From Lysinibacillus fusiformis (GTDB taxonomy: Bacteria > Bacillota > Bacilli > Bacillales_A > Planococcaceae): a stretch of DNA of 64,000 nucleotides. Positions 27,588-51,470 of the stretch are shown here, piece by piece. Numbering within the stretch: the stretch's first letter is position 1; every line of letters begins with the position of its first letter. The notes below the pieces were generated by a model. It was not told where the DNA came from and searched no databases. It saw nothing but the letters and a program-made list of their open reading frames with translations. Made by a program: the position numbers and the translations under genes. The stretch covers positions 4,284,001-4,348,000 of the forward strand of contig NZ_CP070490.1 of NCBI RefSeq assembly GCF_016925635.1. The letters run 5' to 3'.

Positions 27588-27784
27588 GTAAGACTTGGTG
27601 CCAAATGAAAGTTTGGCTTAAAAGGGAAGTCGGTGAAAATCCGACGCTGTCCCGCAACTGTAATTCGGAGCAAATCACAAATGCCACTGGGGAAACTGGG
27701 AAGGCTGTGAGGCGTGTTGATGAAAAGCCAGGAGACCTGCCAATTTCTAGTACACACCAAATACCTACGTGGAAATAGGTGGTG
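27588..27784 (+). ncRNA. Cobalamin riboswitch 1 (controls metE)
   Basis: A class-I cobalamin aptamer: AAAAGGGAAGTCGGTGAAAA (27620-27639), then CCGACGCTGTCCCGCAACTG, GCCACTG (27683), TGGGAAGG (27697) and the canonical B12 box AAGCCAGGAGACCTGCC at 27725-27741. An extended -10 (TGCTATAGT, 27558-27566) gives a likely start near 27573. The expression platform is the terminator at 27873. Binding of cobalamin is expected to switch metE off. Confidence 0.95.
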
Positions 27785-27872
27785 AAAAGTGACCAAATAG
27801 GCACTGTGCGATAATGTTTATGCAAAAGTAGATACTTTTTCGCATTGTTTTAGCATTCATAATTTTAACATG

Positions 27873-27912
27873 CAGCCATTTTCCAAATAGGAGAATGGCT
27901 TTTTATTTTTTC
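27873..27912 (+). terminator. Riboswitch expression-platform terminator for metE
   Basis: AGCCATTTTCC-AAATA-GGAGAATGGCT then TTTTATTTTTT. It precedes the metE ribosome site (AAAAAGGAG) and would form when cobalamin is bound. Confidence 0.9.
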
Positions 27913-27930
27913 TAAAAAGGAGATTATAAC

Positions 27931-30228
27931 ATGACCTATACAAGCACACTCATCGGTTACCCCTATATAGGGGAGGATCGCGAATGGAAAAAAGCATTAG
28001 AATTATTTTGGCGTAATGAACTTTCTGAAGAGGACTTTGAGGAAAGATTAAAGAAGATTCGTTTAGCGAGAATCGACAAGCAGCTACAATTGGGTATCGA
28101 AATGGTGACAGTTGGTGATTTTACGTATTACGATAGAATGTTAGATACGGCTTTGATGTTTGGTCTAGTACCAAAACGCTTTAACTGGCAAGGTGGTAAA
28201 GTCGATTTACATACCTACTACAGTGTAGCAAGAGGGAATAAAACAGCCGTAGCGAGTGAAATGACAAAATGGTTTAATACCAATTATCACTATATTGTTC
28301 CTGAGTATGAGGGACAAACCTTACAACTAACAGAAAATAAAGTGTTAGCTGACTTTTTAGAGACGAAAGAAGCATTCGGGATCATCACGAAGCCGACATT
28401 GATTGGTCCCTATACATTTTGCAAGTTAACAAAAGGCTACAACAAATTAACACAGGTTGAATACTTATTAGCCTTATTACCGCTCTATACGCAGGTATTA
28501 AAAGAGTTAGTGGATGCAGGTGCCACTTGGATTCAGCTAGAAGAGCCATCCCTTGTTACAACTCTTGATCCAGCAGAGATAAAGCTGGTGCAAGAAATTT
28601 ACGACCAATCAGCCGTTGCCGTTCCAGGGGCTAAGATTATGCTACAAACTTATTTTGAAGCATTATGTGCCTATGAAACATTGATTACGCTGCCTGTTCA
28701 AGGGTTTGGCCTAGACTTTGTTCATGGCTATAAAGGGAATATGGAGTCACTGCGTCAATTCGGTTTCCCGCAGGATAAAGTATTGGCAATTGGGGTTGTA
28801 AATGGCCGTGATATTTGGCGTTCAAACCTTGCAGAGGTCAACGCAACGATTCAAGCCATTGAACAGCTAAGTCATGCCGAAGAGCTATGGATTCAACCAT
28901 CAAGTAACCTACAGCATGTTCCAATCACAACCTCTCTTGAAAATGAACTTGACCCTGTTTTAAAGCAGGCTTTGGCCTTCGCAGATGAAAAAATCGTAGA
29001 AATCACGGGGCTGACTAAATTTAGACGAGATAAAGATGGTTCCTTACAACATAATTTTTCAGAAAGTATGAAGGCGATTGAGGCTCTAAAAAATCATCCA
29101 ATCCGCCAAAACAAGTTGATTCATCAAGCTGTTCAAACTGTGACAACGCAAGATTTTGAACGACACAGTGATTTTACGCAACGTCAAAATATACAACAAC
29201 AGGCCTTAGCGTTACCACTGTTCCCAACGACTACAATCGGTAGCTTCCCACAATCTGATGAGGTGAAAAGAAATCGTAATGCTTGGCGAAAGAAACAACT
29301 AGCAAATGAAGACTATGAGGCATTTATAGAAGAGGAAACTAAGCGCTGGATCACTATACAAGAGGACCTAGATATCGATGTACTCGTTCATGGTGAATTT
29401 GAGCGTACAGACATGGTAGAATATTTTGGTGAAAAACTGACTGGCTTTGCCTTTACAGAAAAAGCATGGGTCGTTTCATACGGGTCACGCTGTGTGAAGC
29501 CTCCGATCATTTATGGAGATGTTGCGTGGGCCTCACCCATTACCGTAAAAGAATCAGCCTATGCTCAAAGCCTAACAAAGCGATTTGTAAAAGGCATGCT
29601 GACAGGGCCTGTGACGATATTAAATTGGTCGTTTGTACGCGATGATCTTTCCCGTCAAGATGTCGCTTATCAAATTGCATTAGCACTTCGCAAAGAGGTG
29701 GAAGCACTAGAAAACGCAGGTATTTCGATTATTCAAGTGGATGAACCAGCACTAAGAGAAGGCTTACCGCTTCGAAAAGAAGAGTGGGGGGCTTACTTAG
29801 ATTGGGCTGTCAATTCCTTCAAGCTTGCTACATCTAGTGTCAAAGATGAAACACAAATCCATACACATATGTGTTACTGCGAATTTAATGATTTCATCGA
29901 ACCGATTAGCGCACTAGATGCAGATGTGATTTCCATTGAAACATCGCGAAGCCATGGGGAACTCATCACGTCACTACAAGTGCAACCTTATAAAAAAGGA
30001 ATAGGTTTAGGTGTCTATGATATTCATAGCCCACGTGTACCAAGTGAGGAAGAAATGCTCACTATTATGAAAGATAGTTTACAGGTTCTTGATCGCCATC
30101 AATTTTGGGTGAATCCAGATTGTGGCTTAAAGACTAGAAAAGAAACAGAAACCGTTGCAGCTTTAGCCAATATGGTTGCTGCTACTAAAACATTGCGTCA
30201 AGCCGTACAACAATCTACATCAAGATAA
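27931..30228 (+). CDS. metE: Cobalamin-independent methionine synthase
   Basis: A 765-residue protein, full length for MetE. It transfers the methyl group of 5-methyl-tetrahydrofolate (polyglutamate form) to homocysteine without cobalamin. N-terminal domain: YPYIGEDREWKKALELFW; catalytic C-terminal half: LPLFPTTTIGSFPQ, VHGEFERTDMVEYFGE, and the zinc ligands in IHTHMCYCEFND (His, Cys), EVD/ISIETSRSHGE and VNPDCGLKTR (Cys). AAAAGGAG precedes ATG 27931. It is a single-gene unit under cobalamin riboswitch 1, so it is expected to be made only when B12 is low and MetH cannot work. Confidence 0.98.
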   Translation: MTYTSTLIGYPYIGEDREWKKALELFWRNELSEEDFEERLKKIRLARIDKQLQLGIEMVTVGDFTYYDRMLDTALMFGLVPKRFNWQGGKVDLHTYYSVARGNKTAVASEMTKWFNTNYHYIVPEYEGQTLQLTENKVLADFLETKEAFGIITKPTLIGPYTFCKLTKGYNKLTQVEYLLALLPLYTQVLKELVDAGATWIQLEEPSLVTTLDPAEIKLVQEIYDQSAVAVPGAKIMLQTYFEALCAYETLITLPVQGFGLDFVHGYKGNMESLRQFGFPQDKVLAIGVVNGRDIWRSNLAEVNATIQAIEQLSHAEELWIQPSSNLQHVPITTSLENELDPVLKQALAFADEKIVEITGLTKFRRDKDGSLQHNFSESMKAIEALKNHPIRQNKLIHQAVQTVTTQDFERHSDFTQRQNIQQQALALPLFPTTTIGSFPQSDEVKRNRNAWRKKQLANEDYEAFIEEETKRWITIQEDLDIDVLVHGEFERTDMVEYFGEKLTGFAFTEKAWVVSYGSRCVKPPIIYGDVAWASPITVKESAYAQSLTKRFVKGMLTGPVTILNWSFVRDDLSRQDVAYQIALALRKEVEALENAGISIIQVDEPALREGLPLRKEEWGAYLDWAVNSFKLATSSVKDETQIHTHMCYCEFNDFIEPISALDADVISIETSRSHGELITSLQVQPYKKGIGLGVYDIHSPRVPSEEEMLTIMKDSLQVLDRHQFWVNPDCGLKTRKETETVAALANMVAATKTLRQAVQQSTSR

Positions 30229-30307: not shown

Positions 30308-30394
30308 TTGTTTGGAGAAATTTATTATATTCAGAAAATAAAATTGACGTGAACATGGGAGCATGTTATGTTTATTACTAATTTCATAGCAATC

Positions 30395-30603
30395 ATTACA
30401 AGTTTGAATGAATTCGTCTTTCATTCAATTAAAAGGAAAATGGGTGAAAATCCCATGCTGTCCCGCAGCTGTAAATGAGGAGTTTTGTTTCAAATACCAC
30501 TGAGTAAGTACTTGGGAAGGTGAAGCAAAATCATGATTCATGAGCCAGAATGCCTGCTTGTAAGAAGATTCATTGATGATCTACGAAAGATAGGGAGATG
30601 GAT
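30395..30603 (+). ncRNA. Cobalamin riboswitch 2 (controls the NikABCDE-type operon)
   Basis: Conserved blocks: TTAAAAGGAAAATGGGTGAAAA (start at 30429), ATGCTGTCCCGCAGCTG, ACCACTGAG (30497), TTGGGAAGG (30512) and a variant B12 box GAGCCAGAATGCCTGC at 30542-30557. A vegetative promoter, TTGACG (30344-30349) and TATGTT (30367-30372) 17 bp apart, lies upstream. The CTACGAAAGATAGGGAG tail typical of these aptamers follows. The terminator at 30632 is the probable platform. Confidence 0.9.
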
Positions 30604-30631: not shown

Positions 30632-30662
30632 TCCTTATTCTTTTTTAGAATAAGGTTTTTTT
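30632..30662 (+). terminator. Expression-platform terminator of riboswitch 2
   Basis: CCTTATTCT-TTTTT-AGAATAAGG followed by T7. It lies 63 bp before the first gene of the transporter operon. Confidence 0.9.
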
Positions 30663-30724: not shown

Positions 30725-32341
30725 ATGAGATTGACTAAGTATTTACTTCCTTTACTGCTTGTGCTGACGTTCAGTTTACTTGCTGGCTGTACAAGCACGG
30801 ATGAAGAAAAGGGGAAGACAGCGACACCACAAACAAATGGAAAAATGATAACAATTGGCTGGCCATTAGATGTCGGTCCATTGAATCCTCATACATATTT
30901 ACCGAATCAAATGACTGCCCAAGCCATGGTCTATGAATCCTTGGTGGAATACAATGATGATGGCACGGTTACGCCAAAGCTAGCAGAAAGCTGGGACATC
31001 TCAGAGGACAAAACTTCGTATACTTTCCATTTAAGAAAAGATGTGAAGTATTCAGATGGAACTGCTTTTAATGCCGATAATGTCATTCGTAATTTTGATG
31101 CCGTTTTAGCGAATCGAGACATGCATTCTTGGATGGGCATGGTCAACCATATGAAAGAGGTTGTAAAGGTGGATGATTTTACCATTCGTCTGCAATTGGA
31201 TGAACCCTATTATCCTGTCTTAAACGAACTTGCCTTTGTCAGACCTTTCCGCTTTTTAGGGGATAACGGATTCCCAGAAGGCGATACGACGCAAGATTCT
31301 ATCAAGGAACCGATTGGGACAGGCCCATGGGTGTTAACTGAATACAAAAAGGACGAATATGCATTATTTAGTCGCAATGAAAACTATTGGGGTGAAAAAC
31401 CACTAGTAGAACAAATAAAAGTAAAAATTATTCCTGATTCAGAATCTATTTCATTGGCATTTGAAAACGAAGAATTAGATTTAATTTATGGTCGTGGCAT
31501 TATTAGTTTAGATAACTATACGTATTTAAAAGACAGTGGGAAATATAAAACAGCTACCTCTGAGCCTTTGTCTACGAAAGCACTGCTGTTCAATACACAA
31601 TCTGGCCCGTTAGCTGAATTAAAGGTGCGTCAAGCCATTCAATATGCTATTAATAAGGAGCAAATGGTAGACAGTATTACACATGGTACAGAGAAAGTGG
31701 CAAACACATTGTTCTGGGATGCGATTCCTTATGCCAATATAGATTTAGCGCCTATATTATACAATCCGGAAAAAGCGCAACAATTGCTAGATGAGGCAGG
31801 GTGGACGTTACAGAATGGAGAAAAAATTCGTTCGAAAAACGGACAACCATTATCATTAGATTTAATTTACATTGCATCCGATGCGATTCAAAAACCAATG
31901 GCAGAATTAATGCAAGGTGAATTAGCGAAAATTGGCGTACAGTTGAATTTAGAAGGTGCAGATGTGATGGTCGGTCTACAAAAATTGATGGATGACCAGG
32001 TAGATATTAATTTCTGGCGTACCAATGGACCGCCAACAGACCCTCATAGCTTTGCAAATGAATCAGCTACACCAAATGCTAGTGGTGTGTATGAGGCGAA
32101 ATTAGGCTTACCAAATGCCAAAGAAATTGATACGAAAATTCACCAATTATTAGTAGGGACAGATGAAGAGGAACGCGTGCAGCTTTATACGGATATTTTA
32201 ACGATGTTCCATGACCAAGCACTATTCTATCCAATATCTTACGAAACAAATAATGTGATTTATCAACCATATCTAAAGGATTTTGCCCCACGTGCATCTG
32301 AATACGATATACCTTATGCACAAATGGCTACAGAAAAATAA
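30725..32341 (+). CDS. NikA-type substrate-binding lipoprotein of an ABC importer
   Basis: A 538-residue lipoprotein (lipobox SLLAGC, residues 17-22) of the SBP_bac_5 family. It follows E. coli NikA closely by memory: VGPLNPHTYLPNQMTAQAMVYESLVEY, LNELAFVRPFRF, EPIGTGPWVL, FSRNENYWGEKP and RTNGPPTDPHSF. The segment equal to the NikA metal-loop (a Trp after RT and a His in the PSHADF stretch) reads RTNGPP and TPNASG here, so the usual His ligand seems absent and the ligand may differ. As first gene of the riboswitch-2 operon, it probably collects cobalt or nickel, or a metal chelate, when B12 is scarce. Confidence 0.85.
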   Translation: MRLTKYLLPLLLVLTFSLLAGCTSTDEEKGKTATPQTNGKMITIGWPLDVGPLNPHTYLPNQMTAQAMVYESLVEYNDDGTVTPKLAESWDISEDKTSYTFHLRKDVKYSDGTAFNADNVIRNFDAVLANRDMHSWMGMVNHMKEVVKVDDFTIRLQLDEPYYPVLNELAFVRPFRFLGDNGFPEGDTTQDSIKEPIGTGPWVLTEYKKDEYALFSRNENYWGEKPLVEQIKVKIIPDSESISLAFENEELDLIYGRGIISLDNYTYLKDSGKYKTATSEPLSTKALLFNTQSGPLAELKVRQAIQYAINKEQMVDSITHGTEKVANTLFWDAIPYANIDLAPILYNPEKAQQLLDEAGWTLQNGEKIRSKNGQPLSLDLIYIASDAIQKPMAELMQGELAKIGVQLNLEGADVMVGLQKLMDDQVDINFWRTNGPPTDPHSFANESATPNASGVYEAKLGLPNAKEIDTKIHQLLVGTDEEERVQLYTDILTMFHDQALFYPISYETNNVIYQPYLKDFAPRASEYDIPYAQMATEK

Positions 32342-32346
32342 AAGTG

Positions 32347-32386
32347 GAAGAGAGAGTATGTCTAGCAGAGACAGCTCTCTCTTTAT
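32347..32386 (+). other. Intra-operon hairpin between nikA-like and nikB-like genes
   Basis: AAGAGAGAG pairs with CTCTCTCTT, with an inner GTCT/AGAC stem, and only a short T run. Such hairpins behind binding-protein genes often reduce downstream expression or stabilise the upstream message. Confidence 0.5.
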
Positions 32387-32412
32387 CATAGGATTGAGTA
32401 GGAAGTGACAGC

Positions 32413-33366
32413 ATGTATGAGTCGACATGGATGTTTTGTTTAAAAAGAATTTTGACATTGCCCTTTGTCTTATTAGGCGTTTCCATCCTAACCTTTGTAT
32501 TTATTCGTTTCGTTCCAGTAGAGCCTGCTGAAGTCATTCTACGTTTGGCAAGAGTTGCGCCAACAGAGGAAGCCATTCAGGCATTACGTGAAGAACTAGG
32601 GACGGACAAGTCGTTTCTTCTTCAATATTTACTATGGGGAAAAGGCGTATTACAGCTAGATTTCGGCACATCTTTTGTTAGTAAATTACCCGTGGCACAT
32701 GAGCTACTTGCGAAATTACCCGCAACCATTGAATTAGCGATTGCTGCGTTTGTCCTCATTTTAGGGCTAAGTATCCCATTTGGGGTGATAAGCGCATTGT
32801 ATAAGCACGCTATCATCGATAAAATCATTCGATTCTTTACCATCCTGAGTGTGTCGATTCCAACCTTTTGGCTAGGTTTCCTACTACTCTATTTATTCAG
32901 CTTGAAATTAGGATTCTTTCCGACAAATGGGAAGGGCACACTATCTCATTTAGTTTTACCTGCATTCACTCTGGCTTTACCAACAATTGGCTTGTTCGTT
33001 CAATTTATCCGTTCAACCATCCTAGAAGAATTACAGCAGCAATATGTTCAATATGCACAGTTAAGAGGATTAAAACGCTCTGTGATTCTTATGCGTCATG
33101 TGTTGCGAAATGCTGCTATTCCATTGACATCCCTGTTAGGCATGACCCTTGGGAATCTACTAGGTGGAGCCGTCATTGTGGAGCAGGTTTTTAGCTGGCC
33201 AGGACTCGGCAGGTACTTAATAGAATCCATTATGAACAGGGATTACCCAGTTGTACAATGCTATGTATTAATTATCGCTGTAATCTATGTGCTTGCCAAT
33301 TTATGCACAGATATATTGCATCGTTTATTGGACCCTCATCTAATGATGAAGGGCAGGAGAGATTAA
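32413..33366 (+). CDS. NikB-type ABC permease
   Basis: A 317-residue permease of the DppB/NikB family with six membrane segments. The opening CLKRILTLPFVLLGVSILTFVFIRFVPVEPAEVILR and the inner EAA-like loop VQYAQLRGLKRSVILMRHVLRNA, which docks on the ATPases, are typical. The start at ATG 32413 has GGAAGTGAC upstream. The final GRYLIESIMNRDYPVVQCYVLI is the conserved C-terminal motif. It pairs with the NikC-type permease 2 bp downstream to form the channel. Confidence 0.88.
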   Translation: MYESTWMFCLKRILTLPFVLLGVSILTFVFIRFVPVEPAEVILRLARVAPTEEAIQALREELGTDKSFLLQYLLWGKGVLQLDFGTSFVSKLPVAHELLAKLPATIELAIAAFVLILGLSIPFGVISALYKHAIIDKIIRFFTILSVSIPTFWLGFLLLYLFSLKLGFFPTNGKGTLSHLVLPAFTLALPTIGLFVQFIRSTILEELQQQYVQYAQLRGLKRSVILMRHVLRNAAIPLTSLLGMTLGNLLGGAVIVEQVFSWPGLGRYLIESIMNRDYPVVQCYVLIIAVIYVLANLCTDILHRLLDPHLMMKGRRD

Positions 33367-33368
33367 AA

Positions 33369-34178
33369 ATGAACTTCGTACGAACAAAAAGTAGCAATTT
33401 GATAGGATTCATTAGTCTATCGCTCCTTGTTATCATTGGCTTGTCGGGGCTATTTGCGCCAATTTTAATGCCACACGACCCTTTAGCTGTCGATATAGCT
33501 AAGAAATTTTCGGTTCCGTCTTGGGACTATCCATTAGGTACAGATCATTTAGGAAGGTGTATCTTGTCACGCCTCCTTTTAGGTATTCGTTATTCATTAG
33601 GATCAGCGCTCGTCATTCAGCTAGTTGCCATTGTTTTAGCTATCCTACTAGGTGCTTTTGTAGCGTTGAAAAGGGGCTTAATCGATTTTCTTTTTATTCG
33701 ACTATGTGATATTTTATTAGCCTTTCCGACACTTGTACTTGCATTTGGGCTATTAGGTATATTAGGCCCTAGCTTAAAAAATGTTTTAATAGCACTCATT
33801 TTTACACAGCTTATTTATTATGCAAGAATGGTCCGAAGTTTGTGTATCGGCATGAATGAGAAAAACTTTGTTCAAGCTGCAAGGATTTCAGGCACTACAG
33901 GTATCCAATTAATTAGACGCCATTATATACCCAATATACTGCCATCTATTGTCACGATTGTTGCATTAGATATCGGGAAGGTGATTTTAGAAATTGCGGG
34001 CTTTTCCTTTATCGGACTTGGCGTGCAGGCACCGATTCCAGAATGGGGCATGATGATCAACGAAGGAAAGCAATACATGAGACAGCATCCTGAATTAATG
34101 CTTTATCCTGGACTTGCCATCATCCTTGTTGTGTTATTGTTTAATCAGTTAGCAAATCGTTTAAAAAAGCTTGATTAG
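33369..34178 (+). CDS. NikC-type ABC permease
   Basis: A 269-residue permease of the DppC/NikC family: LMPHDPLAVDIAKKF, YPLGTDHLGRCILSRLLLGIRYSL at the N-terminal side and the EAA loop NFVQAARISGTTGIQLIRRHYIPNI. The start is set at ATG 33369, 2 bp after the nikB-like stop, with GCAGGAGAG upstream; the longer frame from 33258 lies inside the previous gene. It forms the channel with the NikB-type partner. Confidence 0.88.
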   Translation: MNFVRTKSSNLIGFISLSLLVIIGLSGLFAPILMPHDPLAVDIAKKFSVPSWDYPLGTDHLGRCILSRLLLGIRYSLGSALVIQLVAIVLAILLGAFVALKRGLIDFLFIRLCDILLAFPTLVLAFGLLGILGPSLKNVLIALIFTQLIYYARMVRSLCIGMNEKNFVQAARISGTTGIQLIRRHYIPNILPSIVTIVALDIGKVILEIAGFSFIGLGVQAPIPEWGMMINEGKQYMRQHPELMLYPGLAIILVVLLFNQLANRLKKLD

Positions 34179-34191
34179 TAAAGGGGAAGTT

Positions 34192-34965
34192 ATGGAGAAA
34201 GTTTTAGAAGTGAAAGACCTCACAGTCAAAATGGGGGAGAAAAATATATTAACCTCTATCAATCTGACAGCTTATAAAGGGAGAGTCTTAGGAATTATAG
34301 GGGAAAGTGGCAGTGGAAAGACCATGCTTTGCCATGCCATCATGCAAACATTACCGTCCTTAGCACATGTCACCCAAGGTGAAGTACTCTATCAGCAAGA
34401 AAATTTATTGAACGTTTCAGCTGCTAAATTGAGAACTTATCGTGGCCGGCATCTTTCGATGATTTTGCAAAACCCATCTACTGCATTCGATCGTATTCAA
34501 ACGATTGAAAGTCATTTTCGAGAAACATTAAAAGCACACTTTAAGCTGACCAAAAAGGAAATGAGACAGATTGCCCTTGATGCTCTGAATAAAGTCCATT
34601 TATCTCATCCAGAGCAGCTTTTGTCCTACTATCCTTTTCAGTTAAGTGGAGGCATGCTACAGCGAGTGATGATTGCCCTATCATTGGCGATACAAGCTTC
34701 TCTCTACATTGCAGATGAACCTACGACTGCTCTTGATACTATCAATCAAAAACAAGTATTAACACTTTTTGATTGTATTCGCTCAGAAACAGATGCTGCC
34801 ATACTCCTTGTCACGCATGATTTAGGTGTCATTGCTGAACTTGCTGACGATGTGGCTGTGATGTATCAAGGAGAAATCATTGAGCAAACGAATGTTTTTG
34901 ATTTTTTTGATGCGCCTCAGCATCCCTATACAAAGAAGCTTTTACAAGCAAGAATGCTATTTTAG
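34192..34965 (+). CDS. NikD-type ABC ATPase
   Basis: A 257-residue ATPase: Walker A GESGSGKTML, Q-loop MILQNPSTAFD, signature LSGGMLQRVMIAL, Walker B LYIADEPTTALD and H-loop LVTHDLG, plus the C-terminal HPYTKKLLQA tail of oligopeptide/nickel transporter ATPases. ATG 34192 follows AAGGGGAAG. It overlaps no gene and is the first of two ATPases in the operon. Confidence 0.9.
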   Translation: MEKVLEVKDLTVKMGEKNILTSINLTAYKGRVLGIIGESGSGKTMLCHAIMQTLPSLAHVTQGEVLYQQENLLNVSAAKLRTYRGRHLSMILQNPSTAFDRIQTIESHFRETLKAHFKLTKKEMRQIALDALNKVHLSHPEQLLSYYPFQLSGGMLQRVMIALSLAIQASLYIADEPTTALDTINQKQVLTLFDCIRSETDAAILLVTHDLGVIAELADDVAVMYQGEIIEQTNVFDFFDAPQHPYTKKLLQARMLF

Positions 34966-34975
34966 AGGTGAAAAA

Positions 34976-35782
34976 ATGACGTTGCTAGACGTGAAAAATA
35001 TAGACATGCATTATGCTCAAAGACCAGCCCTATTTCAACGAAGACAAAAAATTCCTGTATTACAAAAGATGTCATTTTCACTTCAGGAGGGAGAATGTCT
35101 AGGAATCGTCGGTCAAAGTGGTTCAGGAAAAAGCACATTAGGACGCATTATTTTAGGGATTGAACGACCAACAAACGGAGAGCTGCTCTTTCAAGGTATC
35201 AATTTATACGAAGCACCCAGCAAAGAGAAAAAAATGATACGAAGAAATTTACAGGCTGTTTTTCAAAATAGCTATCATTCATTTAATCCAAAACAGACGA
35301 TTTTCGAAATACTCGAAGAACCGTTTTTGAATTTCGAGCATTTTAGCAAAGCAGAGCGACAACAGAAGGTAAGGGAATTACTAGACTGTGTAGAGTTAGA
35401 GTGGGCAATGGCTCAAAACTATCCCTCACAGCTAAGTGGGGGACAGCAGCAACGAGTCAACATCGCTAGAGCTCTTGCATTAAAGCCGAAACTGATTGTT
35501 TTAGATGAGGCCATTAGTAGTCTTGATATGATTTTGCAAAAGACGATTATAGAACTATTACAATCACTGCAAAAAGAGCTACAGCTTGCTTATCTATTCA
35601 TTTCACATGATTTACAAGCCACACGTTTTATGTCAGATCGCATCCTAGTGATGCAGCATGGTCAGCTCGTGGAGGAGATTGGGAAGGATGGAGCCTATCA
35701 GCATCCCGCTTCACAAGAATTATACAATGCTATTTTGCCATCACACCCGCGAGAAAGAAAAAATAAGGATAGACCAAATTAA
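34976..35782 (+). CDS. NikE-type ABC ATPase
   Basis: A 268-residue ATPase: Walker A GQSGSGKSTLGR, Q-loop AVFQNSYHSFNPKQT, signature LSGGQQQRVNIARAL, Walker B LIVLDEAISSLD (Ala-Ile where many paralogues have Pro-Thr/Val), H-loop FISHDLQA. It follows the NikD-type gene by 10 bp, with AGAGGTG as ribosome site. The two ATPases probably form a heterodimer. The operon ends at the terminator at 35787. Confidence 0.9.
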   Translation: MTLLDVKNIDMHYAQRPALFQRRQKIPVLQKMSFSLQEGECLGIVGQSGSGKSTLGRIILGIERPTNGELLFQGINLYEAPSKEKKMIRRNLQAVFQNSYHSFNPKQTIFEILEEPFLNFEHFSKAERQQKVRELLDCVELEWAMAQNYPSQLSGGQQQRVNIARALALKPKLIVLDEAISSLDMILQKTIIELLQSLQKELQLAYLFISHDLQATRFMSDRILVMQHGQLVEEIGKDGAYQHPASQELYNAILPSHPRERKNKDRPN

Positions 35783-37570: not shown

Positions 37571-37829
37571 ATTGGTCCCTCCTATAGATCATAAGAAACG
37601 ATTCGCCTTTCTTCCTTTAAAAACCTCTATTTTCCTTGTAATGCTTAAAATTGGATGTATTGGGATAGATGCACAATCTTTTTTTTGTACAAAATATTGC
37701 TAAAAAACGCAGAATAGTTCATCAAAGATGAAAAATAGCTTTTTATAATCAGTCTTTTCTGAATTTTACCTATATTGATTGTTTTGAAAACTCTATGTTA
37801 AGGTAAAAAGACAAATTGAATATGCTAAA

Positions 37830-38107: not shown

Positions 38108-38142
38108 AACAACTTCTAGAAAGGGATAGGAGTTGTTTTTTT
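38108..38142 (+). terminator. Expression-platform terminator of riboswitch 3
   Basis: AACAACTTCTA pairs with TAGGAGTTGTT (one GU pair), followed by TTTTTTG. Confidence 0.9.
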
Positions 38143-39331: not shown

Positions 39332-39356
39332 TCAAGTTTTAACAACTCGCCATAAA

Positions 39357-40863: not shown

Positions 40864-40927
40864 CTTTCTAGGCGATTCTGGACGTACTTATGGCGAGGCA
40901 TCATTGATTATTAGGGGGTTTTTATAG

Positions 40928-43543: not shown

Positions 43544-43570
43544 TTGTTATTAAATAGGAGGGAAACGATA

Positions 43571-44356
43571 ATGGTCGATACTTTTGCCAATGTAAGCAAG
43601 GAAGGTGCCATCACGATCATTCATTTAGATCATCCACCAGCAAATACTTTATCATCCGCATCGATTGAAAATCTTCGACTCATTCTCAAAGAGTTAGCTG
43701 TGGACGAACAAACGAATGCTATCATTATGACAGGCTCTGGACGATTTTTTGCCGCTGGTGCAGATATTAAGGAATTTGTTTCTGCCTTTGGGCAACAAGA
43801 AAAAGCATTGCAGATGGCTGAGAGAGGTCAAGCGCTATGTGATGAAATTGAAGCCATGAAAAAGCCTGTTATTGCTGCTATTAATGGTCCAGCTCTTGGA
43901 GGAGGATTAGAGTTAGCATTAGGCTGTCATTTCAGAATTGCATCAAGTAATGCCATTGTTGGTTTACCAGAATTAAAGCTTGGCTTATTGCCGACATTCG
44001 GGGGAACTCAACGATTGAGCAGAATCACGGGGCAAGCAAAGGCACTACAATTGATTTTAACAAGTAAACAACTAAGTGCCGACGAAGCACTACAATTAGG
44101 CATTATTCAACTGGTGACAGAACAAGAGGAGCTTCTGCCAACTGCAAAAGCGATTGCGCAGTCCTTTGTTGAGGGTAAAAGTATGACAAGTGTGTCCCGT
44201 ACAATTGAATGTGTCATACAGGGCGGCAAAGATCATCTCCAAAATGGGCTAGAACTTGAACGAACACGTTTTGCAGAGTTGTTTTTAACAGAGGATGCTA
44301 AAGAAGGGGTTCAGGCATTTATTGAAAAAAGACAGCCAGACTTTAAACATTCTTAA
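43571..44356 (+). CDS. Enoyl-CoA hydratase
   Basis: A 261-residue crotonase-family enzyme. The oxyanion-hole segment FAAGADIKEF, the first catalytic Glu in LGGGLELALGCHFRIAS and the second in LPELKLGLLPTFGGTQRL are all present, so it is a true hydratase, not a hydrolase. The start is ATG 43571, with TAGGAGGG 8-9 bp upstream; the longer frame lies across that ribosome site. It could hydrate acrylyl-CoA, methacrylyl-CoA or crotonyl-CoA; the substrate is not proven. Confidence 0.9.
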   Translation: MVDTFANVSKEGAITIIHLDHPPANTLSSASIENLRLILKELAVDEQTNAIIMTGSGRFFAAGADIKEFVSAFGQQEKALQMAERGQALCDEIEAMKKPVIAAINGPALGGGLELALGCHFRIASSNAIVGLPELKLGLLPTFGGTQRLSRITGQAKALQLILTSKQLSADEALQLGIIQLVTEQEELLPTAKAIAQSFVEGKSMTSVSRTIECVIQGGKDHLQNGLELERTRFAELFLTEDAKEGVQAFIEKRQPDFKHS

Positions 44357-44370
44357 AGGAGGGAATCGAT

Positions 44371-45435
44371 ATGACGAACGAAGTACTATTTTCTGTCAGT
44401 GATGGCGGCGCAGCAACCATTACACTAAATCGTCCTAAAGCCTTAAATTCACTTTCTACTGAAATGCTAAAGCCCATCGGAGAGAAACTGAAGGAATGGC
44501 AAGCAAATGACCAAATTCAGCTAATCATCCTAAAAGGAGCTGGTGAGAAGGGATTTTGCGCAGGTGGTGACATTAAAACACTTTATAAAGCTCGCTCCAG
44601 TCAGGAAGCTTTCAAAAATGCTGAAATCTTTTTTGAAGAAGAATATCAAGTAGATATGGCGATCTACCACTACCCTAAACCCATTATTGCCTGCCTTGAT
44701 GGCATTGTCATGGGAGGTGGGGTCGGGTTAACCTATGGGGCAAGCCACCGAATCGTTACTGAACGAACGAAATGGGCTATGCCAGAAATGAATATTGGCT
44801 TCTTTCCGGATGTTGGAGCTGGTTATTTCTTAAATCAAGCACCAGGCTATGTAGGATACTACTTAGCCTTAACCGCATCGGTCATCCAAGCTGCGGATGT
44901 TCTCTTTACCAATGGCGCAGATTGCTACATGACAAGCGATCAGTTAGACACTTTCCTAGCGCGCATTGAACAATTAGACTGGCATACATTGGAGACCAGC
45001 ACAGCTCTAGGCCAATTAATGGAGGACTATTCAAGTACACCTTTAACAAACAGTGACCTTGCCAACCTCCAACATAAGATCGATCAGCATTTCTCAAAAA
45101 ATACCGTGGAAGAGATAGTTGAATCCTTAGACAATGACGCAAGTAAATTTGCGCAAGAAACAAAGCAGTTCCTTCTATCTAAATCTCCATCATCGTTAAA
45201 GATTACGTTAAAGCAACTGATAGATGCTCGAGATAAGACATTAGAGGAATGCTTTGCGACAGATTTAATCTTGGCTAAAAACTTTTTAAGACATGAGGAT
45301 TTCTTTGAAGGTGTACGCTCTGTCGTCATTGATAAAGACCGAAATCCACAGTATATCTATCAAACATTCAATGAATTTACAGATAAAGACCTAGAAAATT
45401 TCTTTCAAGATCGTAATGCGACAGTAAAAAAGTAA
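44371..45435 (+). CDS. 3-hydroxyisobutyryl-CoA hydrolase-type enzyme
   Basis: A 354-residue crotonase-family thioesterase with the HIBCH pattern: FCAGGDIKTLY, GIVMGGGVGLTYGASHRI and the catalytic pair in MPEMNIGFFPDVGAGYFL (Glu and Asp), and the long C-terminal half normal for this family (about 350 residues). It releases 3-hydroxyisobutyrate or 3-hydroxypropionate from CoA. It is the last gene of the riboswitch-3 operon, 14 bp after the hydratase; ATG 44371 follows AAAGGAGGG. Confidence 0.9.
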   Translation: MTNEVLFSVSDGGAATITLNRPKALNSLSTEMLKPIGEKLKEWQANDQIQLIILKGAGEKGFCAGGDIKTLYKARSSQEAFKNAEIFFEEEYQVDMAIYHYPKPIIACLDGIVMGGGVGLTYGASHRIVTERTKWAMPEMNIGFFPDVGAGYFLNQAPGYVGYYLALTASVIQAADVLFTNGADCYMTSDQLDTFLARIEQLDWHTLETSTALGQLMEDYSSTPLTNSDLANLQHKIDQHFSKNTVEEIVESLDNDASKFAQETKQFLLSKSPSSLKITLKQLIDARDKTLEECFATDLILAKNFLRHEDFFEGVRSVVIDKDRNPQYIYQTFNEFTDKDLENFFQDRNATVKK

Positions 45436-45506: not shown

Positions 45507-45584
45507 TAGTGATATGCGAAGTAAGTTAGCAAAGAGATTGATATGTTATACTATAAAAAACGGAATAACAGGATAAAGGTACAA

Positions 45585-45777
45585 ATTCATAATGAGTTTG
45601 TTTAAAAGGGAAGTTCGGTGAAAATCCGGCGCTGTCCCGCAACTGTAATTAGGAGTACATTTTCAAAGCCACTGTTCTGTCATGTAATGGGAAGGGAAAA
45701 TGTGTGATGATCATAAGCCAGGAGACCTGCCTTTGTCTAGTACAGCCAAAAAACCTACGAGGATAGGGGGTGTTGAG
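45585..45777 (+). ncRNA. Cobalamin riboswitch 4 (controls an unknown two-gene operon)
   Basis: Conserved blocks: TTTAAAAGGGAAGTTCGGTG (from 45601), GCGCTGTCCCGCAACTG, GCCACTG (45668), TGGGAAGG (45688) and a perfect B12 box AAGCCAGGAGACCTGCC at 45715-45731, then ACCTACGAGGATAGGGGG. An extended -10 (TGTTATACT) lies at about 45543-45551. The terminator at 45897 completes the expression platform. Confidence 0.95.
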
Positions 45778-45896
45778 TGTGACGAATTACCTTCATCATA
45801 CTCATAGTGCGACAACCAAGAAAAGGGTCTCTATTCAGTATAGACGACTTATTTTATATTGGTTGAAGAACTATGTAGTATTTAAGTCATAGCTAG

Positions 45897-45929
45897 CATC
45901 TTACCTAAGGGGAAAGATGTTTTTTTTAT
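45897..45929 (+). terminator. Expression-platform terminator of riboswitch 4
   Basis: CATCTTACC pairs with GGGGAAAGATG (imperfect next to the loop), followed by T8. It lies 22 bp before the first gene of the unknown operon. Confidence 0.85.
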
Positions 45930-45950: not shown

Positions 45951-46145
45951 ATGACATCTCATTCAATTTTATTTTATGAAAATCAGTTAAAGCAGCAAAT
46001 AATGAACAACCTTTCTAGTGAGCACATGATTTCCCTACAAGTTTATATCAAAATATTAATACAAGAAAATCCTGATGATTACAAAAATATTAATTATGCC
46101 TATTTAAATATAAAACGTGAGTTAGTCGGGGCAATAGAATGCTGA
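45951..46145 (+). CDS. Unknown small protein, B12-riboswitch controlled
   Basis: A 64-residue protein with two predicted helices (MTSHSILFYENQLKQQIMNN; SLQVYIKILIQENPDDYKNI), mixed charge and one Cys at the end. I recognise no family. The start is ATG 45951, with ATAGGAG 8 bp upstream; an in-frame GTG at 45942 overlaps that site. Its stop overlaps the ATG of the next gene (ATGCTGA), indicating translational coupling. Control by riboswitch 4 means it is expected to be made only when cobalamin is low. Confidence 0.75.
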   Translation: MTSHSILFYENQLKQQIMNNLSSEHMISLQVYIKILIQENPDDYKNINYAYLNIKRELVGAIEC

Positions 46146-46798
46146 TAGATGAAAAAATTTTAGAGGATAGCATTGATATTGATCAAGATACTCTATTTAA
46201 TAATTTGGATCATTTTGAGATTGAGAGATGCTTTGTATTAGAATATTTAGAAATGCTGTTAAAGTGGAATAAACAAACAAACGCTATTTCTGAAGAGAAA
46301 CTTCAAAAGCTTTGGATGAAACTGATAAGAAAATATAAATTTTCTCTTGATGAATGGGAAAGAAATGCTGGAAATACGAATATTCACTCGTATCTTGTGA
46401 AAGAACAAGGGCATGGTCTACAAAAATTAATTCGTTTTTACAGGGACCGTCATGGAGTGAAATGGTTAGAAAATGCCTTTGATTATGGCATGACATTGCT
46501 AATGAAAGGTGGGGAAATGCCAGCATTAGAAATGTTTTTCCTCACAAATTTAATATGTTACAAGTGGCAACTAGACTACTTAGAGGATAAAGAAGTGCAA
46601 TATTACTTTTCTCATTCAGTAAATGGGAAAGTGAAAGAGGTCTATGATCGTTTTAGGGCTTACGATAGAGAACAGAATCTATTAACTGCAACTAAATTAT
46701 ATAAGCTTTTATCCAAATATAATCCTCAATTTCATACAAATTCTGCTGCAACGCCGGAATTTTATAAGGAATTGGCCCTGTTTATTGTAAAGCACTAA
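46139..46798 (+). CDS. Unknown 219-residue helical protein, B12-riboswitch controlled
   Basis: A soluble, largely helical protein without signal peptide or membrane segment (FEIERCFVLEYLEMLLKWN; LIRKYKFSLDEWERNAGN; WLENAFDYGMTLLMKGGEMP; EVYDRFRAYDREQNLL). Cys occur only as single residues (ERCF, LICYK), so no CxxC metal motif is seen. It resembles neither QueH, MetE, RNR nor any B12 enzyme I know. It is translationally coupled to the 64-residue protein and ends at a terminator. The function is open; see findings. Confidence 0.8.
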   Translation: MLIDEKILEDSIDIDQDTLFNNLDHFEIERCFVLEYLEMLLKWNKQTNAISEEKLQKLWMKLIRKYKFSLDEWERNAGNTNIHSYLVKEQGHGLQKLIRFYRDRHGVKWLENAFDYGMTLLMKGGEMPALEMFFLTNLICYKWQLDYLEDKEVQYYFSHSVNGKVKEVYDRFRAYDREQNLLTATKLYKLLSKYNPQFHTNSAATPEFYKELALFIVKH

Positions 46799-46853: not shown

Positions 46854-47124
46854 TAGCTATTCAAGATTATTTTAGGCATTCTATAAATGAATAGTTTTAC
46901 TGTAGATAGAATTTAATAGAAAATCTCGTACATCGTTTAAAATATCTATTTTGTTTAGGTATAAGTAATTAGTGATAATCTATTTCGAACTACATAATCA
47001 AAAATACTGAATAATCCAAAAATAAAGAAGTTTAGAATCTAGATTTACTTTTCATTTGAAGGATGGTAAACTTAAAACTATTGAACAACAACAATATATT
47101 GTGTTCGTTTTACTAAGGTACTAC

Positions 47125-47310
47125 TATATGTAGTTTAAAAGGGAAGTTCGGTACAATTCCGACGCTGTCCCCGCAACTGTTAAGCTGACGATGATAGCAT
47201 CCACTGTGCATGCGCATGGGAAGGAAATCAGAGAATGAAGCAAAGCCAGGAGACCTGCCTTTATAAAACAAATTAATCATTTCTTCGGGGATTAAGAGAT
47301 GGGAACGTCG
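47125..47310 (+). ncRNA. Cobalamin riboswitch 5 (controls nrdHIEF-dut)
   Basis: A promoter TTGTGT (47099-47104) and TACTAT (47122-47127), 17 bp apart, lies at its head. Conserved blocks: TTTAAAAGGGAAGTTCGGT (from 47132), GACGCTGTCCCCGCAACTG (one C more than in the others), CCACTGTG (47201), ATGGGAAGG (47216) and B12 box AAGCCAGGAGACCTGCC at 47243-47259. The terminator at 47342 follows. Confidence 0.92.
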
Positions 47311-47341: not shown

Positions 47342-47375
47342 GCTATCTCTCTTAAAGAGATAGCCTTTTTATTTT
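47342..47375 (+). terminator. Expression-platform terminator of riboswitch 5
   Basis: GCTATCTCT pairs with AGAGATAGC, followed by CTTTTTATTTT. It ends 19 bp before the nrdH start. Confidence 0.9.
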
Positions 47376-47393: not shown

Positions 47394-47618
47394 ATGAAAC
47401 TTTATACGAAAACAATTTGTCCAAAATGCCTGTGGGTAAAATCTGAATTACAACGTGCAGGACTTGAAGCAGAAATTGTTAACATTGATCACGATGAACA
47501 AGCTAAGCAAACCATTATAGATGCAGGTTTTTTAAGTGTGCCTGTTTTAGAAATGAATGAAACCTTTATAGGAGATGTTCAGGAAATTGTTTCTCAAATT
47601 GAGTTGATTACCCTATGA
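47394..47618 (+). CDS. nrdH: Glutaredoxin-like NrdH
   Basis: A 74-residue redoxin with a CPKC active site (residues 9-12: YTKTICPKCLWVKSEL) and a conserved cis-Pro segment SVPVLE. It supplies electrons to the class Ib ribonucleotide reductase. The start is ATG 47394, with AAGAGGG 6 bp before; an in-frame ATG at 47376 lies upstream of that ribosome site. It overlaps nrdI by four bases. Confidence 0.88.
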   Translation: MKLYTKTICPKCLWVKSELQRAGLEAEIVNIDHDEQAKQTIIDAGFLSVPVLEMNETFIGDVQEIVSQIELITL

Positions 47619-47974
47619 TCGTTTATGCAAGTCGTACAGGCAATGTCCGAAATGTTGTATCCAAATTAAAGGCAGAAGCTATCGAGCTCTCTGAAGAATT
47701 GCGACTGAATAAGCCGTATCTTTTAATTACCTACACAGATGGTTTAGGTGACATTCCAGCGAAGGTGCAACGCTTTTTAGAAAAAAACAGAGATTTTTGT
47801 AAAGGAGTAGTTGCCAGTGGCAATAGTAACTTTGGCCATCATGTATTTGGCGCTGCTGGTGAGAAAATTGCTACTACCTATCATGTACCCTTAGTAAGGA
47901 AATTAGATTTACGAGGCAATCAAACAGATTATGAAGCAATACAAACGTTTTATGAAACGAGGGTAATGAGATGA
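47615..47974 (+). CDS. nrdI: NrdI flavodoxin-like maturation factor
   Basis: A 119-residue flavodoxin-fold protein with the FMN phosphate-binding loop YASRTGNVRNVV and the family segments YTDGLGDIPAKVQRFLEKN and VASGNSNFGHHVFGAAGE. NrdI provides superoxide or peroxide for assembling the dimanganese-tyrosyl cofactor of NrdF. Its start overlaps nrdH and its stop overlaps nrdE, each by four bases. Confidence 0.95.
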   Translation: MIVYASRTGNVRNVVSKLKAEAIELSEELRLNKPYLLITYTDGLGDIPAKVQRFLEKNRDFCKGVVASGNSNFGHHVFGAAGEKIATTYHVPLVRKLDLRGNQTDYEAIQTFYETRVMR

Positions 47975-50064
47975 AAACCTATTTAAAGCTTAATAATGAC
48001 GTACTGAATCGTTATAGTACAACTGGATTACTTGAGTTAGAAAAAGATCGTGAAGCTACGCGCCGCTACTTTTTAGAGTATGTCAACGTACGTTTGCGTT
48101 ATTTTATAGATATTGAGGAAAAAATCCGCTATTTAGTTGATGAGGGCTACTATGAGAAAGCATTTATCGACATGTACGAAATGGAATTTATTAAGAAGTT
48201 GTATAAAAAAGCCTATGATTATAATTTCCGTTTCCCATCCTTTATGAGCGCCAGCAAGTTTTATGATAGCTATGCTATGAAAAGTCGTGACGGCGAAGAG
48301 ATTTTAGAAAAATATGAGGATCGTATTGTTATTATTGCTTTGTATTTAGCTCAAGGCAACACAGCTTTAGCAGAACGTTCTGTCGAAGCGATGATGGAAG
48401 CCTATCAACCTGCCACACCAACTGCATTGAATAGTGGCAAGAAAGCACGTGGTGAATTAGTAAGCTGCTTTAAATTATCAATGGATGACTCCATGAATAG
48501 TATTGCCGAAAACATTGGCTATTGTTTAGAGCTATCACGCCTTGGTGGTGGGGTTGGGGTCAACTTAACAGATTTACGCCCTTTAGGGGATCCAATTAAA
48601 GAGATACTGAATCGTGCAAGTGGTGTCATCCCAGTTGCGAAACTGTTAGAAAATTCTTTCAGTTATTCGAATCAGCTAGGGCAACGAAATGGCTCTGGTG
48701 TTGTTTATTTAAATATTTTTCATGCAGATATAGAAAATTTTATTTCATCCAAAAAACCGAATGCCGATGATAAAATTCGCCTCGCAACCCTTTCAACAGG
48801 AATTATTATACCTAGTATTTTCTTCGAACTGATGAAACGCGATAAAGATATTGTTTTGTTTAGCCCATATGATATATATAAAGAATATGGCAAACGTATG
48901 TCTGAGATCTCCATCTCAGAAATGTATTACGAGCTACTTGATAACCCTAAAATTCGTAAAATCAAACGTTTGAATGCACGTAAGCTTTACACAGAGGTGA
49001 AAAAAGCACAATTTGAATCGGGCTATCCGTTTGAAATCTTTGATGATAATGTCAATAAGGTACATCCTTTAAAAAACATTGGTCGCGTAAAAATGTCCAA
49101 TCTATGTACCGAAATTCTGCAAGTGCAAGAGACAAGTATCATTACGGACCAAGATCAACCAAATGACTATGGACTCGATGTATCGTGTAACTTAGGGTCT
49201 ATTGATATCCATGCAGCAAGTAAAGTCAATGATTTCGGCGCATTAGTCGATACAGCCATGCACTTATTAACGAATGTATCGCAAATGACACATATCAAGA
49301 ATGTACCGTCAGTTGCAAAAGCCAATCAATTAATGCATTCTGTAGGGCTTGGCTGTATGAACCTTCATGGGCATCTCGTGACGGAGGGCATCTTGTACGG
49401 CTCAAAAGATTCGATTGATTTCATGGATCACTTTATGGAAGCGATGAACTATTACTCACTGAAATCTTCGATGGAAATGGCGAAAGAAAAAGCTGCAACC
49501 TTCTACCGATTTGAGGACAGTGATTATGCATCAGGTAGCTATTTTGACCAATATATAACTAAGACTGAAGAAGAGCTATCACCTGTTGTGTTGAAAGCAC
49601 TTGGCAATATTCCAATCATTACGAACAAGATGTGGGAAACGTTAAAGCAGGATGTAATGCAATACGGTCTATTCCATTCCTATCGTTTGGCTATTGCTCC
49701 AACTGGCAGTATCTCATATATTCGTAGCTGTACGGCTTCAATCGCACCATGTACAGAGCGCGTAGAGGTTCGTGATTATGCTGATAGTAGAACGATTTAT
49801 CCAATGCCTCATTTAACAAATGACAACAGCCATTTATATGTGGAGGCATATGATGTAAATCCGTATGATTTAATTGATTTATATGCAGCTTCTCAAAAAC
49901 ACGTTGACCAAGGTATTTCCATGACGCTTTATGTGACGGACAATTGGACAACCGAACAATTGGCTAAAGTATACATTTATGCATGGGTAAAGGGCATTAA
50001 ATCCGTTTACTATGTTCGTCAACGATTACAAAGCTTAGAGGAGTGTGTAGCATGTCAAATATAA
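47971..50064 (+). CDS. nrdE: Class Ib ribonucleotide reductase, alpha subunit
   Basis: A 697-residue catalytic subunit that reduces ribonucleoside diphosphates. The substrate-reducing Cys pair (ELVSCFKLS; DVSCNLGSID), the thiyl-radical Cys (MSNLCTEILQ) and the C-terminal redox pair ECVAC are all present; the radical-path tyrosines lie in SVYYVRQR. It lacks the long N-terminal ATP cone of class Ia, as expected for class Ib. It overlaps nrdI by 4 bp and nrdF by 13 bp. Confidence 0.96.
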   Translation: MKTYLKLNNDVLNRYSTTGLLELEKDREATRRYFLEYVNVRLRYFIDIEEKIRYLVDEGYYEKAFIDMYEMEFIKKLYKKAYDYNFRFPSFMSASKFYDSYAMKSRDGEEILEKYEDRIVIIALYLAQGNTALAERSVEAMMEAYQPATPTALNSGKKARGELVSCFKLSMDDSMNSIAENIGYCLELSRLGGGVGVNLTDLRPLGDPIKEILNRASGVIPVAKLLENSFSYSNQLGQRNGSGVVYLNIFHADIENFISSKKPNADDKIRLATLSTGIIIPSIFFELMKRDKDIVLFSPYDIYKEYGKRMSEISISEMYYELLDNPKIRKIKRLNARKLYTEVKKAQFESGYPFEIFDDNVNKVHPLKNIGRVKMSNLCTEILQVQETSIITDQDQPNDYGLDVSCNLGSIDIHAASKVNDFGALVDTAMHLLTNVSQMTHIKNVPSVAKANQLMHSVGLGCMNLHGHLVTEGILYGSKDSIDFMDHFMEAMNYYSLKSSMEMAKEKAATFYRFEDSDYASGSYFDQYITKTEEELSPVVLKALGNIPIITNKMWETLKQDVMQYGLFHSYRLAIAPTGSISYIRSCTASIAPCTERVEVRDYADSRTIYPMPHLTNDNSHLYVEAYDVNPYDLIDLYAASQKHVDQGISMTLYVTDNWTTEQLAKVYIYAWVKGIKSVYYVRQRLQSLEECVACQI

Positions 50065-51020
50065 TCTATGAGGCCGTCAATTGGAATAAAGCAACAAGTG
50101 AGCTTGCCCAAATATTTTGGGATCAGCAATGGAAGCAAATTTGGTTTCCTGAAGAAATTGCGGTCAGTAAAGATATTAAGCAATGGAAAAGCTTTGAACA
50201 TCAAGACACATATAAAAAAGTATTTGCAGGATTAACCTTACTAGATACTGTACAAACAAATATAGGAATGAATCGTGTTGCCGCTTATACAGACGATTTA
50301 CAGGAGAAGGCTGTCCTAACTGTTTTTGATGCATTTGAGGCCATCCATGCCAAATCTTACTCTTATATTTTCACAACGCTTTGTACAAATGAAGAAATAG
50401 ACGAGCTATTTGAGTGGGTCAAGAAAAATGAATTCCTACAGTATAAGGCAAATAAAATTGCAGATATTTATAATAGTATTGAAGAAGGCAATCCAGAGAG
50501 TTTATGGAAAGCAATGTTCTCATCCGTCATGCTCGAATCCTTCCTTTTCTATTCTGGCTTTTTCTATCCATTGTACTTAGGAGGACAAGGCTTCCTACGA
50601 AACAGTGCTGAAATTATTTCACTTATTTTGCGTGACGAATCTATCCATGGTGTAGCAGTTGGATTTTTTGCTCAAAATCTATTCAAGCAATTTTCAAAGG
50701 AAAAGCAAGAAGAGCTACATTTATGGGGCTATGAGTTATTATTAGATTTATATCAAAATGAAATGAAATATACCGATGATATTTATGCGGAAACAGGATT
50801 ATCGCCTGAAGTGAGAGCGTATGTACGTTATAATGCTAATAAAGCACTAATGAATGTCGGCTTTGAAGCCATGTTCCCAGAAGAGGAAGTCAATCCGATT
50901 GTGATGAATGGTATTCGTAATGAAGGCTCCACATATGATTTCTTTTCACAAAAGGGTGCTACCTATGCCAAGGCAAAAGTTGCGCCGATCACAGATGACA
51001 CATTCAATTTTAATCGTTAA
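50052..51020 (+). CDS. nrdF: Class Ib ribonucleotide reductase, beta subunit
   Basis: A 322-residue subunit holding the dimetal-tyrosyl radical. Metal ligands in FDAFEAIHAKSYSYIF (Glu, His and the radical Tyr), MLESFLFYSGF (Glu) and LRDESIHGVAVG (Glu, His). The start is ATG 50052, within the end of nrdE, with GAGGAG upstream. The enzyme needs Mn or Fe and oxygen but no cobalamin, so it can replace a B12-dependent class II reductase. Confidence 0.96.
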   Translation: MSNIIYEAVNWNKATSELAQIFWDQQWKQIWFPEEIAVSKDIKQWKSFEHQDTYKKVFAGLTLLDTVQTNIGMNRVAAYTDDLQEKAVLTVFDAFEAIHAKSYSYIFTTLCTNEEIDELFEWVKKNEFLQYKANKIADIYNSIEEGNPESLWKAMFSSVMLESFLFYSGFFYPLYLGGQGFLRNSAEIISLILRDESIHGVAVGFFAQNLFKQFSKEKQEELHLWGYELLLDLYQNEMKYTDDIYAETGLSPEVRAYVRYNANKALMNVGFEAMFPEEEVNPIVMNGIRNEGSTYDFFSQKGATYAKAKVAPITDDTFNFNR

Positions 51021-51032
51021 GGATGAAGCACA

Positions 51033-51470
51033 ATGAATCTAGAAGTAAAAATCAAAAAAATTCACAATGATGCCATGCTACCAATGCAAGCCAACCCTGG
51101 TGATGCGGGCATGGATCTCTATTCCATCGAAGCCATAGAGATCCCAGCAGGCGTAGCCAAACTCGTTAAAACAGGTATTCAGATTGAATTACCTAAGGGA
51201 ACGGAAGCACAAATTCGACCTAGAAGTGGACTAGCATTAAAGCATAGTGTAACTGTACTCAATAGCCCAGGCACAATAGATGAAGGCTATAGAGGCGAAA
51301 TCGGCGTTATTTTAATCAACCATGGTCAAGAACCATTTATCGTAGAAAAATCCATGCGTATTGCCCAAATGGTTATTCAATTTGTTCCATCCATTCAATT
51401 AGTGGAAGTAGACGAATTATCTCAAACGGTCCGTGGGGCATCTGGATTTGGAGCAAGTGGTACGAAATAG
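51033..51470 (+). CDS. dut: dUTP pyrophosphatase (trimeric dUTPase)
   Basis: A 145-residue enzyme with the five trimeric-dUTPase motifs: [45 protein letters not shown] and the C-terminal GASGFGASG loop. It turns dUTP into dUMP, the precursor of dTMP, and lowers uracil in DNA. It follows nrdF by 12 bp and is the last gene of the riboswitch-5 operon, an arrangement that links deoxynucleotide supply and clean-up. Confidence 0.95.

Follow-up and report, generated by a model that had tools for sequence, protein, structure and literature searches.

This analysis concerns a group of cobalamin (vitamin B12) riboswitches in Lysinibacillus fusiformis, located in a stretch of 64,000 nucleotides (contig NZ_CP070490.1, forward strand, positions 4,284,001 to 4,348,000; hereafter the window, whose own numbering is used below). 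Five units, named here metE, nik, prp, orf64/orf219 and nrd, follow one another in this stretch, each behind its own riboswitch. They are best explained, with a probability of about 0.78, as five independently movable riboswitch cassettes. Three of them would swap B12-dependent for B12-free enzymes, nik would serve metal uptake, and the fifth would supply the small protein orf64. The same figure covers, jointly, the view that the units are gained and lost as entire cassettes of riboswitch plus operon, and that they have gathered near metE in part of the genus.

The whole window was scanned with cmscan and Rfam at gathering scores (31.5 bits for RF00174, Cobalamin). Five aptamers were found, all full length (model positions 1-189), all on the plus strand and scoring 111.2-127.3 bits. 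A first-pass annotation, made by a model from the sequence alone, had placed five B12 boxes (27725, 30541, 37981, 45715, 47243), each in a complete aptamer and each ahead of a terminator. The boxes exist, although their exact starts (27727, 30544, 37983, 45717 and 47245) are 2-3 nt off, and the covariance model proposed in the annotation as a check returns a complete aptamer around all five. An intrinsic terminator, followed by a T-rich run, lies between aptamer and first gene in 5/5 leaders. The elements are as follows.

27579..27758, plus strand, cobalamin aptamer of the metE unit (RF00174, 127.3 bits)
27874..27900, plus strand, intrinsic terminator of the metE leader
30383..30575, plus strand, cobalamin aptamer of the nik unit (RF00174, 112.1 bits)
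30633..30655, plus strand, intrinsic terminator of the nik leader
37819..38014, plus strand, cobalamin aptamer of the prp unit (RF00174, 115.9 bits)
38108..38137, plus strand, intrinsic terminator of the prp leader
45560..45748, plus strand, cobalamin aptamer of the orf64/orf219 unit (RF00174, 121.1 bits)
45896..45919, plus strand, intrinsic terminator of the orf64 leader
47099..47276, plus strand, cobalamin aptamer of the nrd unit (RF00174, 111.2 bits)
47342..47364, plus strand, intrinsic terminator of the nrd leader

Cobalamin binding favours termination. By this known mode of action, the RNA would terminate when cobalamin is plentiful, and transcription would enter the operon when it is scarce. 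The genes placed under this control are listed below.

27931..30228, plus strand, metE, B12-independent methionine synthase of 765 aa (TIGR01371, 1055 bits, cut-off 930)
30725..35782, plus strand, nikABCDE-type ABC importer for nickel or cobalt (family models)
38207..41842, plus strand, prpC, prpD and prpB of the 2-methylcitrate cycle (prpD by TIGR02330 and prpB by TIGR02317, above cut-off)
41885..45435, plus strand, FadE/ACAD9-like acyl-CoA dehydrogenase (acd), enoyl-CoA hydratase (ech) and 3-hydroxyisobutyryl-CoA hydrolase (hibch); acd and hibch above cut-off, ech below
45951..46145, plus strand, orf64, of a family of about 60 aa tied to metE and the riboswitch (profile and locus comparison)
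46139..46798, plus strand, orf219, a narrowly distributed orphan overlapping the end of orf64
47394..51470, plus strand, nrdH, nrdI, nrdE and nrdF (class Ib ribonucleotide reductase) and dut (family models and Pfam)

The proposal that three of the units replace B12-dependent enzymes is borne out. MetE, PrpDB and NrdE are named by their models, and each of the three units is the sole copy matched in the genome (one metE, one prpD and one class I NrdE, the last picked up by the NrdJ model as a cross-match). NrdE (TIGR04170) and NrdI (TIGR00333) score above cut-off and NrdH below, while NrdF and the dUTPase were recognized by Pfam. PrpC passes the citrate synthase model PRK12349 and falls short of the 2-methylcitrate synthase models, so it is named by its operon. 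NikA reaches 624 bits (TIGR02294, cut-off 393), NikB passes the cut-off of Opp2B (nickel permease), and the best matches of NikC, NikD and NikE are nickel models, below cut-off. The gene list of the first-pass annotation (metE, nikABCDE, prpCDB with three acyl-CoA enzymes, a two-gene unit and nrdHIEF-dut) therefore stands as to content, with ech, nrdH, nikC, nikD, nikE and a methylcitrate-type prpC under their model cut-offs. Its label of "cobalamin independence" for the whole cluster does not, because it fits only three of the five units: nik is for metal uptake, and orf64/orf219 have no assigned function. DUF2089 genes sit behind nik in the window; they are located elsewhere in G154, G074, G084 and G162, and beside nrd in G033. 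The small RNA ncr1575 (RF02452, 139 bits; 27219-27426, minus strand) adjoins the metE leader. It is found next to metE in G127 and G121 too, and is present in G033 without metE.

The B12-dependent counterparts, predicted to lie elsewhere in the genome, are present. MetH, MutB and IcmF are above model cut-offs, MutA was recognized by similarity (below its own cut-off), and the class II reductase NrdJ is interrupted, consisting of three pieces, each below cut-off. The nrdJ locus (L050, C1:4931000-4943000) contains a group I intron match and open reading frames that, by eye, look endonuclease-like. A search for B12 synthesis genes, also suggested at the outset, gave a riboswitch-led cobalamin-synthesis region, in which CbiM and CobT were confirmed and other cbi genes were recognized by eye. 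The genome (5.01 Mb, one contig) holds 16 Cobalamin aptamers, and the count across a sample of 32 Lysinibacillus genomes ranges from 6 to 16. One survey gives 535 cobalamin aptamers in 197 genomes (PMC3766115). MutB occurs in 32/32 genomes of the genus sample, as does an IcmF-like frame of 1085-1143 aa with a mutase domain (assigned by length, the IcmF model having been run on that of the window genome only). An NrdJ-type match was likewise obtained in 32/32; it is above cut-off in 24 and split in the rest, the window genome included, and a single uninterrupted full-length match is seen in 10/32.

Under low B12, MetE would take over from MetH, the 2-methylcitrate cycle with its acyl-CoA side branch from MutAB/IcmF, and the class Ib ribonucleotide reductase from NrdJ. 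Judged by its family matches, the nik operon encodes a metal importer and would raise metal uptake; the metal is probably cobalt, serving cobalamin synthesis, because a cobalamin riboswitch leads the operon. The orf64 protein of about 60 aa would be expressed as well. As for acd, ech and hibch, they might convert isobutyryl-CoA to propionyl-CoA, which would enter the 2-methylcitrate cycle and so bypass IcmF and MutAB, or they might form a propionate shunt.

Association with the riboswitch is maintained across the genus. metE is found in 19/32 genomes, with an aptamer upstream in 19/19 (16 by motif, G165 from the aptamer listing of the genus, plus G145 and G157). prpD occurs in 11/32 and is riboswitch-led in 11/11 (by Rfam in eight genomes and by motif in G049, G154 and G074), the copies in G133 and G145 not being linked to metE. 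The acd-ech-hibch genes follow prp in 10/11 and were not seen in the stretch examined in G145. For the class I ribonucleotide reductase, an aptamer was present in 18/20 chosen upstream stretches away from the five-unit site; the two stretches without one (G160:C53 and G121:C15) belong to second copies, with another copy in the same genome. All five units are together in 3/32 genomes (G000, G127 and G049), four in G152, three in G121, G154, G151, G074 and G084, and two in G166 and G162. These counts were made in stretches of 13-34 kb around metE, some aptamers being assigned by motif only. The idea of a dedicated low-B12 block was thus overstated, as other genomes have subsets, or prp and nrd apart with the riboswitch kept. 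Gene order supports clustering in part of the genus and does not support a fixed block.

The boundaries of the units are consistent with their gain or loss as wholes. In DNA alignments, whole units are absent between conserved neighbours, and the breakpoints relative to G033, G121 and G152 fall between units. G033 is without 27471-35849 and 37089-46912, G121 without 37104-46903, and G152 without 30301-37116. The comparison covered 58 aptamers, 38 of them from the five classes; in 38/38 the closest of the other aptamers shares the class and comes from a different genome. The mutual identity of the five window aptamers is 49-64%. Because of these two results, the riboswitch appears mostly to travel with its own operon and not to have been recently copied in place.

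The fifth unit leads to a family of small proteins. The orf64 aptamer is sister to another aptamer of the genome (C1:3743038), which precedes a gene of 55 aa, and such a gene follows the aptamer in 14/14 Lysinibacillus loci, these loci having been chosen for that aptamer type. The comparison of orf64 with this genus-wide 55-aa type gave 94% in hhalign, and in a shuffle homology test the window orf64 scored 20.3 bits, the best of 2,000 shuffles reaching 16.9. A family model combining the two types (A3) has matches in 71 of the 261 genomes in a sample of the order, including 29/32 Lysinibacillus, and extends to 11 of the 19 genera sampled. Outside Lysinibacillus, 42 genomes match; neighbourhoods were examined in 20 of them, mostly the better-scoring ones. 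A cobalamin aptamer lies upstream in 11 of these loci and metE in 7, the gene starting no more than about 250 nt past the metE C-terminus. In one locus (L178), metE debris (residues 1-43 and 108-128) remains between the aptamer and the orf64-type gene. Within Lysinibacillus, the distance of the orf64-type gene to metE is 0.7 kb in G133 and G153 and 2-6 kb in G157, G165, G161 and G115; in others the two are far apart. The window orf64 is 49-52% identical to proteins from other genera (L173-L175) and about 25% to the genus-wide copy. Its dN/dS of about 0.2 indicates purifying selection, with faster evolution than metE or prpD. Since most of the relatives examined follow an aptamer or metE, and L178 keeps scraps of metE, the orf64 units are most likely metE operons that lost metE.

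The orf64 protein probably has a tuning role in the methionine or B12-sparing response. In Bacillus, small proteins take part in the iron-sparing response. By analogy, the family might consist of B12-sparing effectors, made under cobalamin shortage and acting with MetE or shutting down B12-dependent enzymes, born behind metE and freed when metE was lost; this fuller proposal is speculative, with the odds clearly against it. An identity with FbpB, a small Fur-regulated protein, was not supported, as 2 of 17 members matched at E <= 0.1 (best E 0.021) and the model cut-off was not reached. Of the Lysinibacillus small-protein leaders, 14/14 contain an open frame of 42-43 codons between aptamer and terminator. 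A comparison of 13 leaders, with L141 and the window's own orf64 leader left out, led to the rejection of a conserved leader peptide: differences are even over the codon positions (355/341/327) and dN/dS is 0.81 (59/78 pairs), so that the stretch is conserved as RNA. The downstream gene of 55-60 aa is clearly coding (796/525/1619; dN/dS 0.15 from 22/78 pairs, unequal lengths being dropped).

orf219 is much rarer, with matches in 7/261 genomes: in five it is a stand-alone gene, in G034 the match resembles a domain of a longer protein, and in G158 a remnant is left. A cobalamin aptamer precedes 5/5 of the stand-alone genes, and the broken remnant (L093:2560-2805) lies upstream of a riboswitch-led nrd unit. 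A search of genome contigs gave three loci. The gene is under purifying selection (dN/dS about 0.2) and evolves faster than metE or prpD. Its AlphaFold model is all helical, with a mean pLDDT of 57.6, too weak for a fold search, and no match to a solved structure was obtained. Comparison with phage, plasmid and defence proteins gave no convincing match. The genome of Caryophanon tenue holds a relative of orf219 and gave no orf64 match with the A3 model. At this locus (L068:9866-19968) three cobalamin aptamers lie within 1.5 kb, two of them directed towards surface proteins with S-layer homology, which lie on either side of the orf219 relative. Another protein of no known family, b251 (251 aa, L019:1746-2501), is encoded behind a cobalamin aptamer and kept in 11/11 genomes compared; a relationship to orf219 was rejected (BLASTP E 0.41, hhalign probability 0.8%).

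The cluster could also be an ordinary B12 regulon whose members are neighbours by chance, the clustering being local gene shuffling only. Isozymes of B12-dependent enzymes are described as a standard regulon class (PMC3766115), metE and nrdEF of Priestia megaterium are controlled by cobalamin riboswitches (PMC8390425), and in several Lysinibacillus genomes the prp and nrd units are elsewhere with the riboswitch retained. Nevertheless, two or more of the five units stand together in 11/19 metE genomes (in the 13-34 kb stretches), and five of the 16 aptamers within 19.7 kb are not a random outcome; this explanation is considered rather unlikely. Such crowding arose in 1/200,000 trials in which the genome's 16 aptamers were placed at random, a weak null because genes of the same function cluster anyway. 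The patchy distribution of the units would suit a mobile genomic island, transferred as a single element and making its host independent of B12, but units break off singly between neighbours that remain; on these breakpoints, such an island is considered highly improbable.

Another alternative concerns the acyl-CoA genes. In Caenorhabditis elegans, ACDH-1, ECH-6 and HACH-1 are the enzymes of the propionate shunt, and the classes of acd, ech and hibch match all three. These genes could be the bacterial counterpart of that shunt (propionyl-CoA to acrylyl-CoA to 3-hydroxypropionate) and not a valine/isobutyryl-CoA route replacing IcmF. The classes needed (a dehydrogenase, a hydratase, a hydrolase and two further dehydrogenases) are present in the genome, where four MMSDH genes above cut-off were found elsewhere, one of them adjoining an HIBADH-like gene. 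However, the latter is below the cut-off of its model, and prpCDB of the same operon already removes propionyl-CoA; an upstream route making propionyl-CoA therefore fits better, and the shunt is considered improbable.

Several observations weigh against the preferred reading of five movable, B12-switched cassettes. The cobalamin response of these operons is an inference from the known mode of action of the riboswitch. No single five-unit block is conserved, as unit content differs among relatives. The importer nik may carry either nickel or cobalt. acd is nearer the Bacillus FadE and the VLCAD/ACAD9 types than the isobutyryl-CoA dehydrogenase ACAD8, so that any part it plays in bypassing B12 is putative. 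The simple picture of co-travel is disturbed by the Caryophanon orf aptamer, which falls outside its class in the aptamer tree. As for orf64, its orthologues in G049 and G127 score 16.0 and 14.4 bits, so that two of three orf64-type proteins are below the best shuffle (16.9) and the shuffle test alone is modest. The match in G152 spans only positions 1-35 of 60, and neither aptamer nor metE accompanies 2/20 of the relatives examined outside the genus, the two weakest matches. Pfam and NCBIfam hold no convincing family for orf64, and orf219 has no convincing family match.

Outside the window, one of the riboswitches is associated with a prophage-like element of about 16 kb (C1 about 4116880-4133440; L018, L019) carrying tyrosine integrase, head and tape-measure genes. 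A cobalamin aptamer stands on either side of it; the two are identical over about 210 bp, and the left copy is upstream of the integrase. A related element (integrase 94%) occupies this site in G158 and has a near-identical aptamer pair of its own; five relatives aligned there have a single aptamer each. The riboswitch looks like the attachment site of the element. An aptamer inside the element (L018:8798-8974) clusters in the tree with aptamers of the nrd class, and no nrd gene was found behind it. In the literature on prophages and riboswitches, judged mainly from listings and some passages, no riboswitch attachment site was found.

Parts of this arrangement are known from other organisms. 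P. megaterium, also of the Bacillales, has riboswitch-led metE and nrdEF, with 8 cobalamin aptamers (PMC8390425). Here there are 16, prpCDB-acd-ech-hibch, nik and the orf64 unit are added, and the five units are adjacent. In C. elegans, low B12 likewise switches on an alternative propionate route (PMC4951191) and rewires the Met/SAM cycle. There a nuclear hormone receptor is responsible, whereas here a cis-acting RNA would serve each operon and propionate would be handled via 2-methylcitrate. Mycobacterium tuberculosis has metE and a gene of uncertain function, ppe2, under B12 riboswitches, with a reported interplay of upstream open reading frames (PMC11260477); the apparent upstream frame of the Lysinibacillus small-protein leaders failed the coding test. 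In the literature on cobalamin riboswitches, judged mainly from titles and the beginnings of abstracts, neither a riboswitch-led prp operon nor the orf64 family was found.

The analysis adds a 2-methylcitrate operon with an acyl-CoA branch to the functions placed under cobalamin riboswitches. Moreover, units of riboswitch plus operon appear to behave as exchangeable cassettes in Lysinibacillus. Finally, an unnamed family of about 60 aa, matched in 11/19 genera and, in the loci examined, usually neighbouring a cobalamin riboswitch or metE, may offer a handle on how these bacteria meet B12 shortage beyond enzyme swapping.

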